A DNA stretch of 64,000 bases from Nitrososphaeraceae archaeon (GTDB lineage Archaea > Thermoproteota > Nitrososphaeria > Nitrososphaerales > Nitrososphaeraceae): the NCBI GenBank assembly GCA_031316115.1, contig JALDRC010000005.1, positions 248,001 through 312,000 of the forward strand, given 5' to 3'. The translations under genes were made by a program, and so were the position numbers. The notes beneath the pieces are model-generated. The model was not told the origin of the DNA and ran no database searches. It saw only the letters and a program-made list of their open reading frames with translations. Shown here in pieces: positions 1 to 9,739 of the stretch. Positions within the stretch are counted from its first letter, which is position 1; every line of letters starts with the position of its first letter.

Positions 1-73
1 CATTAAATATGCTGAAAATGCTAATATTCCATTGTTGGAATCTAAACAAATACAAACATACTCGTTAATTTAA
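1..73 (+). CDS. ribB: C-terminal end of RibB (DHBP synthase), partial
   Basis: An open frame enters from the left edge (codons begin at base 2) and stops with TAA at 71-73. The 23 visible residues include KYAENANIPLLESKQIQ, which resembles the C-terminus of 3,4-dihydroxy-2-butanone 4-phosphate synthase (typically 'A..H.LP....EDLI.Y'). RibB makes the four-carbon substrate of lumazine synthase, whose gene begins 8 bases downstream, so context agrees. Only the tail is visible, so the call rests on a short match plus operon position. Confidence 0.5.
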   Translation, partial: IKYAENANIPLLESKQIQTYSLI

Positions 74-81
74 TTTTTAAA

Positions 82-543
82 TTGTACCAAGTAAGACTAG
101 GATTGGTTGTTTCTGAATTTAATGAAGAAATTACCAATGCCATGTTAGAAGAAGCTAAACTGCAGGCATCGAAGTTAGGTGCTATTATCAATTATGTATG
201 TTATGTTCCAGGTACTTTTGATATGCCTCTAATTATCAATAGTTTGCTGCAAAAGAATAATATTGATGCCATAGTGACATTAGGGGCGGTTATAAAAGGA
301 GATACTGATCATGATTTGATAGTCGCAGAAAATGCTGCAAGAATGATCGCTGATTTGTCACTTGCGCATAATAAACCAATAGTATTAGGAATATCTGGAC
401 CTAACATGACTTTAGAACAGGCTTGGGAAAGAGTAAAAATAATACCTATCAGAACAGTAAATGCAGCGATAAATATGGTCGTTAGACTGCGAAAAATTAA
501 TGAGATTAATGAAATGGAAAATAAAATGAATATTATAAAATGA
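82..543 (+). CDS. ribH: 6,7-dimethyl-8-ribityllumazine synthase
   Basis: This 153-residue protein condenses 5-amino-6-ribitylaminouracil with 3,4-dihydroxybutanone phosphate in the penultimate step of riboflavin synthesis. It has the family landmarks in order: N-terminal VSEFN, VPGTFDMP near residue 43 (family VPGAFEIP) and GAVIKGDTDHD near residue 69, carrying the catalytic-region His. The length is normal. The start is TTG at 82, giving MYQVRLGLVVSEFN; no ATG lies in a suitable position. It follows the ribB stop by 8 bases and its TGA overlaps the next ATG (ATGA), indicating one transcript. Confidence 0.93.
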   Translation: MYQVRLGLVVSEFNEEITNAMLEEAKLQASKLGAIINYVCYVPGTFDMPLIINSLLQKNNIDAIVTLGAVIKGDTDHDLIVAENAARMIADLSLAHNKPIVLGISGPNMTLEQAWERVKIIPIRTVNAAINMVVRLRKINEINEMENKMNIIK

Positions 544-1316
544 CTATACAAATTACAATTATAAAAATTGAAGGATACGGCGGTTGGACTCTAACTCTAG
601 GAAATGACAGAGAAGCTCAATTACAAATTCTACAATCTAAGATATATGGAGATTTACAAAAATTATTCTCGGAACAAAATTGTCTTGTTTTTTTTAATCG
701 GTTTGATGAATATTTTGTAGCGTCTAATGGCTTATCTGTAAAAGATCATATAGAGATAATTAGAGAAATGTCTAAAAAATATCCCAATCTAGTACTTTCA
801 ATTTCTATAGGAACTGGGAATACTCCATTAGATGCCAATAATAATGCTTATAAAGCTAGAAAAAGTAAGAATCTTTTGGATTCTCATTATTTAATTTATG
901 GAAATCAGTTGGATTGTTTAAAAACAAATACAAGATCAGTTTGGAATAACTATTTCAAAATTCTTCATATTGATATAAATAATTCATCAGAAACAGAATC
1001 AAAATTATCGCCATATGAGATTACATTACATGTGGTAAAAATATATTTTATTCTTATAGATAAATTTCTGAAAAAAGATTCTTTAACTTTTTTTTTGGGA
1101 GGTGATAATTTTATGGTAATTACCCATGATTTAAAAGAATCTGAAATTTCAAATATATTAGATATCATATATAAGGAATCTCGAGTAAAACTTAATTGCG
1201 GAATAGGTTCAGGAAGAACATCCAGAGAAGCTGCTAAAAATGCTACACAATCACTTGATAATATCCGTAAGTTAAGAAATGAAGGTAAAATTTTTCATGT
1301 TTATGAAGCTATATGA
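540..1316 (+). CDS. arfA: GTP cyclohydrolase IIa (archaeal GTP cyclohydrolase III)
   Basis: The 258-residue product matches the archaeal GTP cyclohydrolase III family (MJ0145 type), which opens GTP to 2-amino-5-formylamino-6-ribosylamino-4(3H)-pyrimidinone 5'-phosphate, the first step of archaeal riboflavin and F420 synthesis. The characteristic N-terminus (ITIIKIEGYGGWT) and two related halves of the cyclase/GGDEF-like fold are visible: NRFDEYFVASNG in the first and FFLGGDNFMVI in the second, each followed by a glycine-rich segment (ISIGTGNTP, NCGIGSGRTSREA). It overlaps ribH by 4 bases at its start and the amidohydrolase gene by 4 bases at its end, so the operon looks translationally coupled. 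Confidence 0.92.
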   Translation: MTIQITIIKIEGYGGWTLTLGNDREAQLQILQSKIYGDLQKLFSEQNCLVFFNRFDEYFVASNGLSVKDHIEIIREMSKKYPNLVLSISIGTGNTPLDANNNAYKARKSKNLLDSHYLIYGNQLDCLKTNTRSVWNNYFKILHIDINNSSETESKLSPYEITLHVVKIYFILIDKFLKKDSLTFFLGGDNFMVITHDLKESEISNILDIIYKESRVKLNCGIGSGRTSREAAKNATQSLDNIRKLRNEGKIFHVYEAI

Positions 1317-2620
1317 TAAAAATAATAAAGAATATAAGTCTACTTTATGGAAACAATCTAAGATTTATTGAACATGGATTTGTTCAAATCAATGATCAAG
1401 GTATTATTATGGATGCAGGTTCAATGGATACTTATTCAAATAATCTTCCACAAAACAATCTGCATATATTTGACGGTGAAGGTTTTATTGTTATACCAGG
1501 ATTTATTAATGCGCATACTCATATTGCTGATTCTATTGGAAAAGATATATATATAAATTCTGAATTTGAAGAACGAATTCATCCAATTTATGGAATTAAA
1601 CAAAAAATACTGAAAAATAGCAAACAAGAACATCTAAAATATTTTATACGAAATTCAGCAATTAGCATGTTAAAAAAAGGCATAGTTGCATTTGCAGATT
1701 TTAGAGAAGGAGGTGTAGAAGGTATTAAATTGTTATTAAATTCTTTAAGCGATCTTCCAATAAAATCTGTGATTCTAGGAAGACTAGAATATTATTTTGA
1801 TTTAAAAGAATATCAAACTAAGAAGATACGACTAGACAATAAAAAAAATTTAAATGATCAAAAGATTCCTTCTGACCTTCTATCCTCTGTTAGAAATGTA
1901 TTAGAATTAGGTAATGGTTTGGGAATAAGTGGGACGAATGAAAATACAAATTTAGCTTTAAAACAATATAGATATGTTTTTGATCAATTTAATAAACATA
2001 AATTTTTGAAAAATAAATATATGCAGAAAAAAATTATTGCAATTCATGCTGCTGAATCAAAAAAGACAGTCGCATTTTCAAAAAAATATACTGGAAAAAC
2101 TGAAGTTGAAAGAAGTATTATATTTTTGAAACCCAATCTCTTTATTCATATGACACATGCTACATTAAATGACCTTGTTCTAGCTTCAAAAAATAATATT
2201 GGTATAGTTATTTGTCCTCGATCTAATGGTATGCTTGGGAATGGCATTCCTGATATACCATCAATGCTAAAATTGGGATGTAAAATTGCAATTGGTACTG
2301 ATAATATTATGGTCAATTCTCCAGATCTGTTACGTGAAGTAGATTACATATGGAAAGTATCAAGATCACAACAAACAAAATACTCTGTCCAAAACGATAT
2401 GAGGGAATTACTAAAAATGATCACAGTCAACCCAGGAGATCTGTTTAATTTAAATTCTGGAGCAATAGTAAAAGGTAAGTTCGCTGATTTATTATTTATA
2501 GATAAATTTCATCTTGAGCTTCAACCTATTCATAACATATATGCTTCTTTAATACATCGTCTCACCTATGATGCCATCAAAGCAGTCATGATTAATGGAA
2601 AGTTTGTGAATGTCGATTAA
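1313..2620 (+). CDS. ATZ/TRZ-type amidohydrolase inside the riboflavin operon
   Basis: This 435-residue metal-dependent hydrolase belongs to the amidohydrolase superfamily, ATZ/TRZ/guanine-deaminase branch. It shows HTH (His68, His70) after PGFINA, HAAE (His245, Glu248), IHMTHA (His279/His282), the family segment CPRSNGMLGNG at about 301, and GTDN (Asp330). These supply the metal ligands and catalytic Glu and Asp. Members of this branch deaminate or hydrolyse aminopyrimidines, purines and triazines. It overlaps arfA by 4 bases and arfC by 11, so it is made with them. I infer a role as the formamide hydrolase (ArfB step) or as the deaminase that archaeal riboflavin synthesis still lacks. Substrate is unproven; a nucleobase-salvage deaminase is the alternative. 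Confidence 0.85.
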   Translation: MIKIIKNISLLYGNNLRFIEHGFVQINDQGIIMDAGSMDTYSNNLPQNNLHIFDGEGFIVIPGFINAHTHIADSIGKDIYINSEFEERIHPIYGIKQKILKNSKQEHLKYFIRNSAISMLKKGIVAFADFREGGVEGIKLLLNSLSDLPIKSVILGRLEYYFDLKEYQTKKIRLDNKKNLNDQKIPSDLLSSVRNVLELGNGLGISGTNENTNLALKQYRYVFDQFNKHKFLKNKYMQKKIIAIHAAESKKTVAFSKKYTGKTEVERSIIFLKPNLFIHMTHATLNDLVLASKNNIGIVICPRSNGMLGNGIPDIPSMLKLGCKIAIGTDNIMVNSPDLLREVDYIWKVSRSQQTKYSVQNDMRELLKMITVNPGDLFNLNSGAIVKGKFADLLFIDKFHLELQPIHNIYASLIHRLTYDAIKAVMINGKFVNVD

Positions 2621-3275
2621 ATCTGATCTTAGAGTCATAATTAATTCAGCCATGACTGTTGATGGAAAAATTTCTACAATTAGTGGAGACTCTAAAATTT
2701 CCTCTAAAGAGGATTTAGTGCGTTTACATAAATTACGTTCTAAAGTTGACGCAATCATGGTTGGAATTAATACTGTAATAATAGACAACCCTATGCTTAA
2801 TGTTAGAATAAATAATATCAAAAAAAAGTCTCCTTCACGGATTATTATAGACAGTACTGGTAAAATTCCTCTAAATTCGAAAATCTTAAGGAGTGCTTCT
2901 CAAATAAATACCATTATAATCGTAACAAAAGAAGCAGATAAAGACATCATAGATAAAATTAATTCTTTTGGCGCAAAGGTATTAGTTATTGGTACTAAAT
3001 CAGTAAATTTACCAAAATTGTTTAATATTTTATATGAAATGGGATATAAGAAAATTTTAGTAGAAGGGGGCGGAGAATTGAATTGGTCATGTATCACTTC
3101 AGGATTGGTAACAGATTTAATATTAACCATATCACCAAAAATCATAGGAGGAAAAAAAGCAATAACCCTAGTAGAAGGTTCTGGGTATTCAAAAATATCT
3201 AATGGAGTAAATCTACAGTTAGTTAGAGTAACAAAAAAAAAGAATAATGAAATAATACTATATTATAAATTATAA
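2610..3275 (+). CDS. arfC: 2,5-diamino-6-ribosylamino-pyrimidinone phosphate reductase
   Basis: The 221-residue protein is a stand-alone RibD C-terminal (dihydrofolate-reductase-like) domain. It reduces the ribosyl side chain to ribityl with NAD(P)H in archaeal riboflavin synthesis. Diagnostic segments are SAMTVDGKIST near residue 13, LRSKVDAIMVGINTV near 45, PSRIIIDSTGKIP near 75 and the nucleotide-binding LVEGGGELN near 150, followed by SPKIIGGKKA. The ATG at 2610 lies inside the end of the amidohydrolase gene, with an 11-base overlap. It is the last gene of the operon; its stop lies 7 bases from the end of the convergent tfe gene. Confidence 0.92.
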   Translation: MSIKSDLRVIINSAMTVDGKISTISGDSKISSKEDLVRLHKLRSKVDAIMVGINTVIIDNPMLNVRINNIKKKSPSRIIIDSTGKIPLNSKILRSASQINTIIIVTKEADKDIIDKINSFGAKVLVIGTKSVNLPKLFNILYEMGYKKILVEGGGELNWSCITSGLVTDLILTISPKIIGGKKAITLVEGSGYSKISNGVNLQLVRVTKKKNNEIILYYKL

Positions 3276-9211: not shown

Positions 9212-9739
9212 ATGGCTATAATAAAAAAAAATAAGATAAATTGGAACAAGGTAAGACCTTCTTGGGATGTATATTTTATGCTTCAAGCTGAAATTGCAAA
9301 ATTACGTTCGAATTGTATTACACGTCAAATAGGATCCGTTATAGTTAAAGAGAATCGTCAAATTGCTACTGGATATAATGGTACACCTCCTGGAATAAAG
9401 AATTGTATTGATGGAGGTTGTAATAGATGCCAAGCTAGAATGAATGGAGAATTAAGTTCAGGAGGTAGCTTGGAGAGATGTTTATGTACTCACGCCGAAG
9501 CAAATGCTATTATGCAATGTGCACTATTTGGAAATGGAACAAGTACTAGTGGAACTACACTTTATAGTACATTTTCGCCTTGTTTAGAATGTAGTAAAAT
9601 GTGTATAACAGTTGGTATTAAAAGAATTGTTGTTATTAACGATTATACAGAAGATAGTTATAAAATATTAGAAGAAGCTAACATAAATATCGATAAATTA
9701 AAAAAAGAAGAACTTCTTCAATGGCTAGATTTTATTTAA
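9212..9739 (+). CDS. Deoxycytidylate (dCMP) deaminase
   Basis: This 175-residue member of the cytidine/dCMP deaminase superfamily has RPSWDVYFMLQAEIAKLRSNC at the N-terminus, TRQIGSVIVK, GYNGTPPG near residue 58, the zinc and proton-shuttle motif HAEANAI near 97 and SPCLECSKMC near 122. The C...C...H residues between 72 and 94 match the extra zinc site seen in the ComEB/dCMP deaminase group. It converts dCMP to dUMP for dTTP synthesis. The ATG at 9212 follows a 95-base spacer. The small gene at 9832 lies downstream on the same strand. Confidence 0.9.
   Translation: MAIIKKNKINWNKVRPSWDVYFMLQAEIAKLRSNCITRQIGSVIVKENRQIATGYNGTPPGIKNCIDGGCNRCQARMNGELSSGGSLERCLCTHAEANAIMQCALFGNGTSTSGTTLYSTFSPCLECSKMCITVGIKRIVVINDYTEDSYKILEEANINIDKLKKEELLQWLDFI

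Follow-up and report, generated by a model that had tools for sequence, protein, structure and literature searches.

Gene order, co-occurrence with arfA and a predicted fold point to an amidohydrolase as the probable deaminase of archaeal riboflavin and F420 synthesis

The window, a 64,000-nucleotide stretch of a Nitrososphaeraceae genome, carries between arfA and arfC an amidohydrolase gene that we propose, with high confidence on the basis of comparative sequence evidence and a structural model, to encode the deaminase that archaea use in making riboflavin and F420. To our knowledge, the deamination step of this pathway has no proven gene in archaea. It also seems very likely that this amidohydrolase-fold deaminase is the near-universal archaeal partner of ArfA and fills the deamination step, including in the six-gene riboflavin operon of the ammonia oxidisers. 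If true, a gene would be assigned to a step of an essential archaeal cofactor pathway feeding flavins and F420, the archaeal solution would use a fold unrelated to that of the bacterial/fungal enzyme, the label 'chlorohydrolase' would be corrected on many archaeal genomes, and dephosphorylation would be left as the main reaction still without a gene. Haloferax offers a tractable host in which this prediction could be put to the test.

For this family the idea has a precedent. Table 6 of PMC8305020 (2021) lists three riboflavin gaps for Haloferax and cites Rodionova et al. 2017 for candidates for two of them, namely HVO_1235 (ArfB) and HVO_2483 with its homologue MJ0699; the remaining one concerns the phosphatase EC 3.1.3.104, which leaves HVO_2483/MJ0699 as the deaminase candidate by elimination, a prediction known to us through this citing paper. 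The first-pass annotation of the window held that the step has no assigned gene in archaea and so overlooked this computational prediction of 2017, while its statement stands in that we found no assay-based proof; no paper reporting the deaminase activity was found in the open-licence literature. Because the NF005552 profile matches both M. jannaschii and H. volcanii and a Halobacteriales protein falls inside the archaeal clade of the 75-relative tree described below, the window gene and HVO_2483/MJ0699, the pair predicted for this gap, very probably belong to the same family. Added here are the evidence from ammonia oxidisers, a co-occurrence table and the coexistence of the amidohydrolase with creatininases.

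The riboflavin operon and its conservation

The amidohydrolase ORF encodes 435 aa from an ATG start and lies in an operon of the order ribE-ribB-ribH-arfA-amidohydrolase-arfC, which comprises six genes because ribB and ribE sit upstream of the window on the same strand (Table 1). Overlaps of 4 bases join ribH to arfA and arfA to the amidohydrolase gene, which in turn overlaps arfC by 11 bases; the last two values agree with those of the first-pass annotation. The protein scores 133.4 bits (1.5e-38) against Pfam Amidohydro_1 (gathering score 25) and, over its full length, 303 bits against NF005552 (PRK07213.1, 'chlorohydrolase'; cut-off 294 bits), an NCBIfam family whose name is silent on riboflavin and whose cut-off lies above the scores of distant crenarchaeal members. 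The Pfam search gave it neither a creatininase (PF02633) nor a cytidine-deaminase (PF00383) match, and the ArfB model NF033501 was absent among the best 25 of the 39 NCBIfam families that match it. Neither a tRNA nor an Rfam match at the gathering threshold was found across the whole window (1-64000), and there was no match to anti-phage defence models; a sigma-70-type promoter scan was uninformative, the host being an archaeon.

Table 1. Genes of the riboflavin operon and motifs of the amidohydrolase, in window positions except where another frame is given
Feature	Position	Strand	Evidence or remark
ribE (riboflavin synthase)	upstream of window, before ribB	+	NCBIfam TIGR00187, 208.7 vs 156.6 bits
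ribB, full gene	L034 11393-12073 = genome C16:247393-248073		Pfam DHBP_synthase 2.2e-52; preceded by ribE
ribB (DHBP synthase), 3' end	1-73	+	gene start upstream of window
ribH, 6,7-dimethyl-8-ribityllumazine synthase	82-543	+	Pfam PF00885 3.3e-34; TIGR00114 above cut-off
arfA, GTP cyclohydrolase III	540-1316	+	Pfam PF05165 (GCH_III) 6.4e-55
amidohydrolase, proposed 2,5-diamino-6-ribitylamino-4(3H)-pyrimidinone 5'-phosphate deaminase	1313-2620	+	Pfam PF01979, NCBIfam NF005552, neighbourhood, arfA co-occurrence, AlphaFold model and fold search
H68-x-H70, metal-binding motif	1514-1522	+	conserved in clade and other ATZ/TRZ enzymes
H245-x-x-E248, metal ligand and catalytic Glu	2045-2056	+	98-99% conserved
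C301-P-R-S-N305	2213-2227	+	R303 clade-specific: 90% Arg in clade, Ile/Val/Ala outside
T329-D330-N331	2297-2305	+	D330, catalytic/metal Asp; N331 clade-specific
arfC, 2,5-diamino-6-ribosylamino-4(3H)-pyrimidinone 5'-phosphate reductase	2610-3275	+	TIGR01508, 195.6 vs 186.45 bits; Pfam RibD_C 1.2e-48

The first-pass annotation had named a gene order limited to this genome as an outcome that would speak against its proposal; the order ribH-arfA-amidohydrolase-arfC was in fact kept in all 29 ammonia-oxidising archaea examined. With start codons set mechanically as the first ATG/GTG/TTG, the arfA-amidohydrolase junction overlapped by 1-10 bases in 29/29 of these genomes and the amidohydrolase-arfC junction overlapped in 27/29, the exceptions being a gap of 16 bases and an insertion of ~1.1 kb. 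The four-gene order is more than chance, and the presence of the amidohydrolase in the riboflavin operon is not a local oddity. The gene is found with arfC in several further families of Thermoproteota and in Heimdallarchaeota (L119, L122), with ribH-arfA in Sulfolobales-like genomes (L040, L046, L047), and with ribH, arfA and arfC all together in Bathyarchaeota (L057) and Jordarchaeia (L061). Methanosarcinales are also among the lineages in which it is linked to arfA, arfC or ribH; in Methanosarcina, Methanolobus and Methanococcoides its distance from arfC is two genes, and in Methanothrix it is divergent from arfC. Counting against the deaminase reading, the gene lies away from riboflavin genes in several families (Pyrobaculum-like f11, f13, f22), 'Pyrobaculum-like' and 'Sulfolobales-like' being labels guessed from gene content.

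Two local arrangements may be recorded here. A creatininase-arfA-arfC-ribB cluster in family f11 (L205 1568-4207) is without the amidohydrolase gene, which is found elsewhere in the same genome (L153). Methanosarcinaceae encode universal-stress-like and CBS-domain-like proteins between the amidohydrolase and arfC (L076 7096-8490 and the Methanolobus equivalents); in Methanoperedens (L091) a comparable pair lies after the amidohydrolase.

Creatininases and the choice of step

The first-pass annotation had allotted the protein one of two steps, the formamide hydrolysis that follows ArfA or the deamination that follows ArfC, and had favoured the latter, a preference that is supported by three riboflavin clusters from two lineages in which an amidohydrolase and a creatininase-family protein occur together (L056, L058, L061). 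The L056 cluster reads ribB-ribC-ribH-arfA-amidohydrolase-arfC-creatininase, the Jordarchaeial L061 cluster has the same gene content, and L058 is a close relative of L056. With the known steps of L056 filled, deamination and dephosphorylation remain, and of these a metal-dependent ATZ/TRZ protein fits only deamination. A creatininase elsewhere in the genome, for which the first-pass annotation had proposed a survey, was also found: exactly one is present in all sampled Nitrosopumilaceae (f2) and Nitrosocaldaceae (f3) and one or two in Nitrososphaeraceae (f1), and a single orthologous group common to the three families includes the C4:64676 gene of the window genome. The formamidase role of these creatininases is putative, since those of the clusters and C4:64676 score 29-40 versus 180 bits on the curated ArfB model, well below it. 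ArfB itself (creatininase family PF02633; M. jannaschii) serves the same pathway at a neighbouring step but belongs to a different protein family from the amidohydrolase, and creatininase-family proteins and the amidohydrolase occur together in genomes.

These observations bear on whether the amidohydrolase might substitute for ArfB by hydrolysing the formamide of the FAPy-ribose phosphate made by ArfA. Its place directly after arfA in ammonia oxidisers and Sulfolobales-like genomes would suit two consecutive steps, and no creatininase was found in three carriers of the amidohydrolase, Methanosarcina spelaei, Methanolobus vulcani and Methanoperedens. We nevertheless regard such a substitution as very improbable: a creatininase stands beside the amidohydrolase in the three clusters above and elsewhere in the genome in the sampled ammonia-oxidiser families (with the caveat of their low scores on the ArfB model), the protein has a deaminase-type active site and fold, and in M. 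acetivorans an NF005552 match comes without a detected ArfA. Short of an assay, the evidence decides between the two options for the deaminase and not the formamidase.

GTP cyclohydrolase II was likewise not found in M. spelaei (L076), M. vulcani (L097) or Methanoperedens (L091), and the first two riboflavin steps appear to have no assigned gene in these Methanosarcina, Methanolobus and Methanoperedens genomes or in the M. acetivorans control.

Active site, predicted fold and putative reaction

The full ATZ/TRZ-type active site noted in the first-pass annotation was recovered with its motifs intact (H68-T-H70, H245-A-A-E248, H279, C301-PRSN305, GTD330-N331). Residues H68, H70, H245, E248, H279 and D330 stand in the expected order, are 97-100% conserved in 99 members and are kept in the outgroup, whereas G13, D73, G94, K96, L100, F130, E132, R303, N331 and R416 are conserved in the clade and not in the sampled ATZ/TRZ outgroup. 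A fold search with the AlphaFold model (pLDDT 91.6, pTM 0.92) returned adenosine-type deaminases, atrazine chlorohydrolase, the isocytosine deaminase Vcz, guanine deaminases and triazine hydrolases as the best PDB matches, with TM ~0.7-0.8 to 4gbd, 4v1x, 7ww2 and 2i9u; identity to characterised relatives is 12-21%, a low value that counts against the deaminase reading. By Pfam, active-site and fold criteria the protein is a member of the amidohydrolase superfamily and belongs to the ATZ/TRZ (subtype III) deaminases.

Vcz and guanine deaminase provide chemical precedents because the ArfC product carries, as its pyrimidinone, a substituted isocytosine ring. The isocytosine-specific Vcz (PDB 7ww2, 8is4), a subtype III amidohydrolase whose substrate has the same type of ring as that product, shares the fold of the window protein (TM 0.77-0.80) at 16% identity; the ligand in 8is4 is a free base, and the clade of the window gene conserves K96, R303 and R416, which the sampled ATZ/TRZ outgroup does not.

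In the route that we infer, in its substrate, step order and residue roles alike, ArfA would open GTP, a creatininase-type formamidase would then remove the formyl group, ArfC would reduce the ribose to ribitol, and the metal-dependent (beta/alpha)8 amidohydrolase would then hydrolyse the 2-amino group of the isocytosine ring to yield 5-amino-6-ribitylamino-uracil 5'-phosphate and ammonia. The mechanism would be that of ATZ/TRZ deaminases, with one divalent metal bound by H68, H70, H245 and D330; H279 would help to activate a water, and E248 would carry protons to the ring and to the leaving amine. Of the clade-specific residues, K96, R303 and R416 are candidate ligands of the phosphate, with the ring or the ribityl chain possibly held by D73, E132 and N331. 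RibD/Rib2, of the cytidine-deaminase fold, catalyse the same type of reaction as that proposed for the amidohydrolase with an unrelated fold, and Rib2 acts on the same substrate in fungi.

The same chemistry on the same ring would also permit deamination before reduction, the bacterial order, in which the enzyme would act on 2,5-diamino-6-ribosylamino-pyrimidinone phosphate with ArfC afterwards, and the amidohydrolase gene does precede arfC in the operon. This order is nonetheless very unlikely: reduction comes first in archaeal biochemistry (Graupner 2002, as cited in PMC8305020 and PMC13028884), and ArfC scores above the cut-off of the archaeal reductase equivalog. The passages of the 2026 review PMC13028884 on this route likewise place archaeal reduction before deamination, and name no gene. 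Deamination of the ArfC product is the reaction that we propose.

Distribution with arfA and other deaminases

Since a locally built amidohydrolase profile pulled in outgroup enzymes, clade membership was settled on tree position and the A3 profile. A tree of 75 relatives separated an archaeal clade of 61, which holds all riboflavin-linked proteins, from 14 other ATZ/TRZ enzymes, bacterial ones among them, across a long dividing branch (length 1.22, SH-aLRT 100). A second tree (57 rows) gave the same split (branch length 0.86, SH-aLRT 100) and placed the Pyrobaculum-like, f13, f22 and f6 copies inside the archaeal clade; both trees were quick and made without bootstrap. Near 1e-52, the E-value alone failed to part Pyrobaculum-like members from other ATZ/TRZ enzymes, whereas the tree did so.

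Of 299 genomes from the phylum, 129 yielded arfA and 133 the amidohydrolase clade, a count that includes G065 and G129, two arfA genomes at first seemingly without the gene, the reasons being a divergent copy and a match split in two. The clade was present in every arfA genome (129/129), occurred without arfA in four (G017, G091, G097, G294), and in 166 genomes neither was found (Fisher p 4e-81, ignoring the relatedness of the genomes). An arfC homologue without a clade member occurs in 18 genomes, G252 (below) among them, which counts against the deaminase reading; all 18 are also without arfA, and most of them may therefore not run this pathway.

This distribution bears on a further explanation, that the protein is a nucleoside salvage deaminase (for SAH, MTA, 5'-deoxyadenosine or guanine) that merely happens to lie in the operon. 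Its closest solved relatives are indeed SAH/MTA, guanine and triazine enzymes, and its public label is 'chlorohydrolase', yet it falls in a separate clade with invariant residues of its own, its presence tracks arfA in 129/129 genomes, and genomes such as G075 hold a further ATZ/TRZ gene outside the clade. We therefore hold a salvage role to be highly improbable and retain the assignment to the riboflavin pathway as the very probable one.

Several arfC homologues found without arfA or amidohydrolase belong to genus g58 of family f5 (L139, L141, L144, L147, L152); a number of the g58 homologues adjoin an anthranilate-phosphoribosyltransferase-like gene, and they may serve another pathway. G277, a genome of the same order (family f4) with a completeness rating of 100%, gave no arfA, arfC, amidohydrolase or creatininase, and is possibly a riboflavin auxotroph among the relatives of the ammonia oxidisers.

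The window genome has two PF00383 matches, one at 9212-9739 and the other weaker and stop-containing, and no RibD-type domain was found in its operon. Formally, the dCMP-deaminase-like gene at 9212-9739 offers this genome another deaminase, a point against the amidohydrolase; we rejected it as the pathway enzyme, its best match being the ComEB dCMP-deaminase model (below cut-off) and its position outside the operon, ~6 kb downstream of arfC. In 37 of the 38 genomes tested, no bacterial RibD-type deaminase domain is attached to the reductase. G252, from the same phylum, is the one exception: arfA, creatininase and amidohydrolase were not found in it, and instead a single ORF of 583 aa (L151 4800-6551) combines GTP cyclohydrolase II, cytidine-deaminase and RibD_C in a bacterial-type fusion; this fusion ORF has CofG/CofH-like neighbours.
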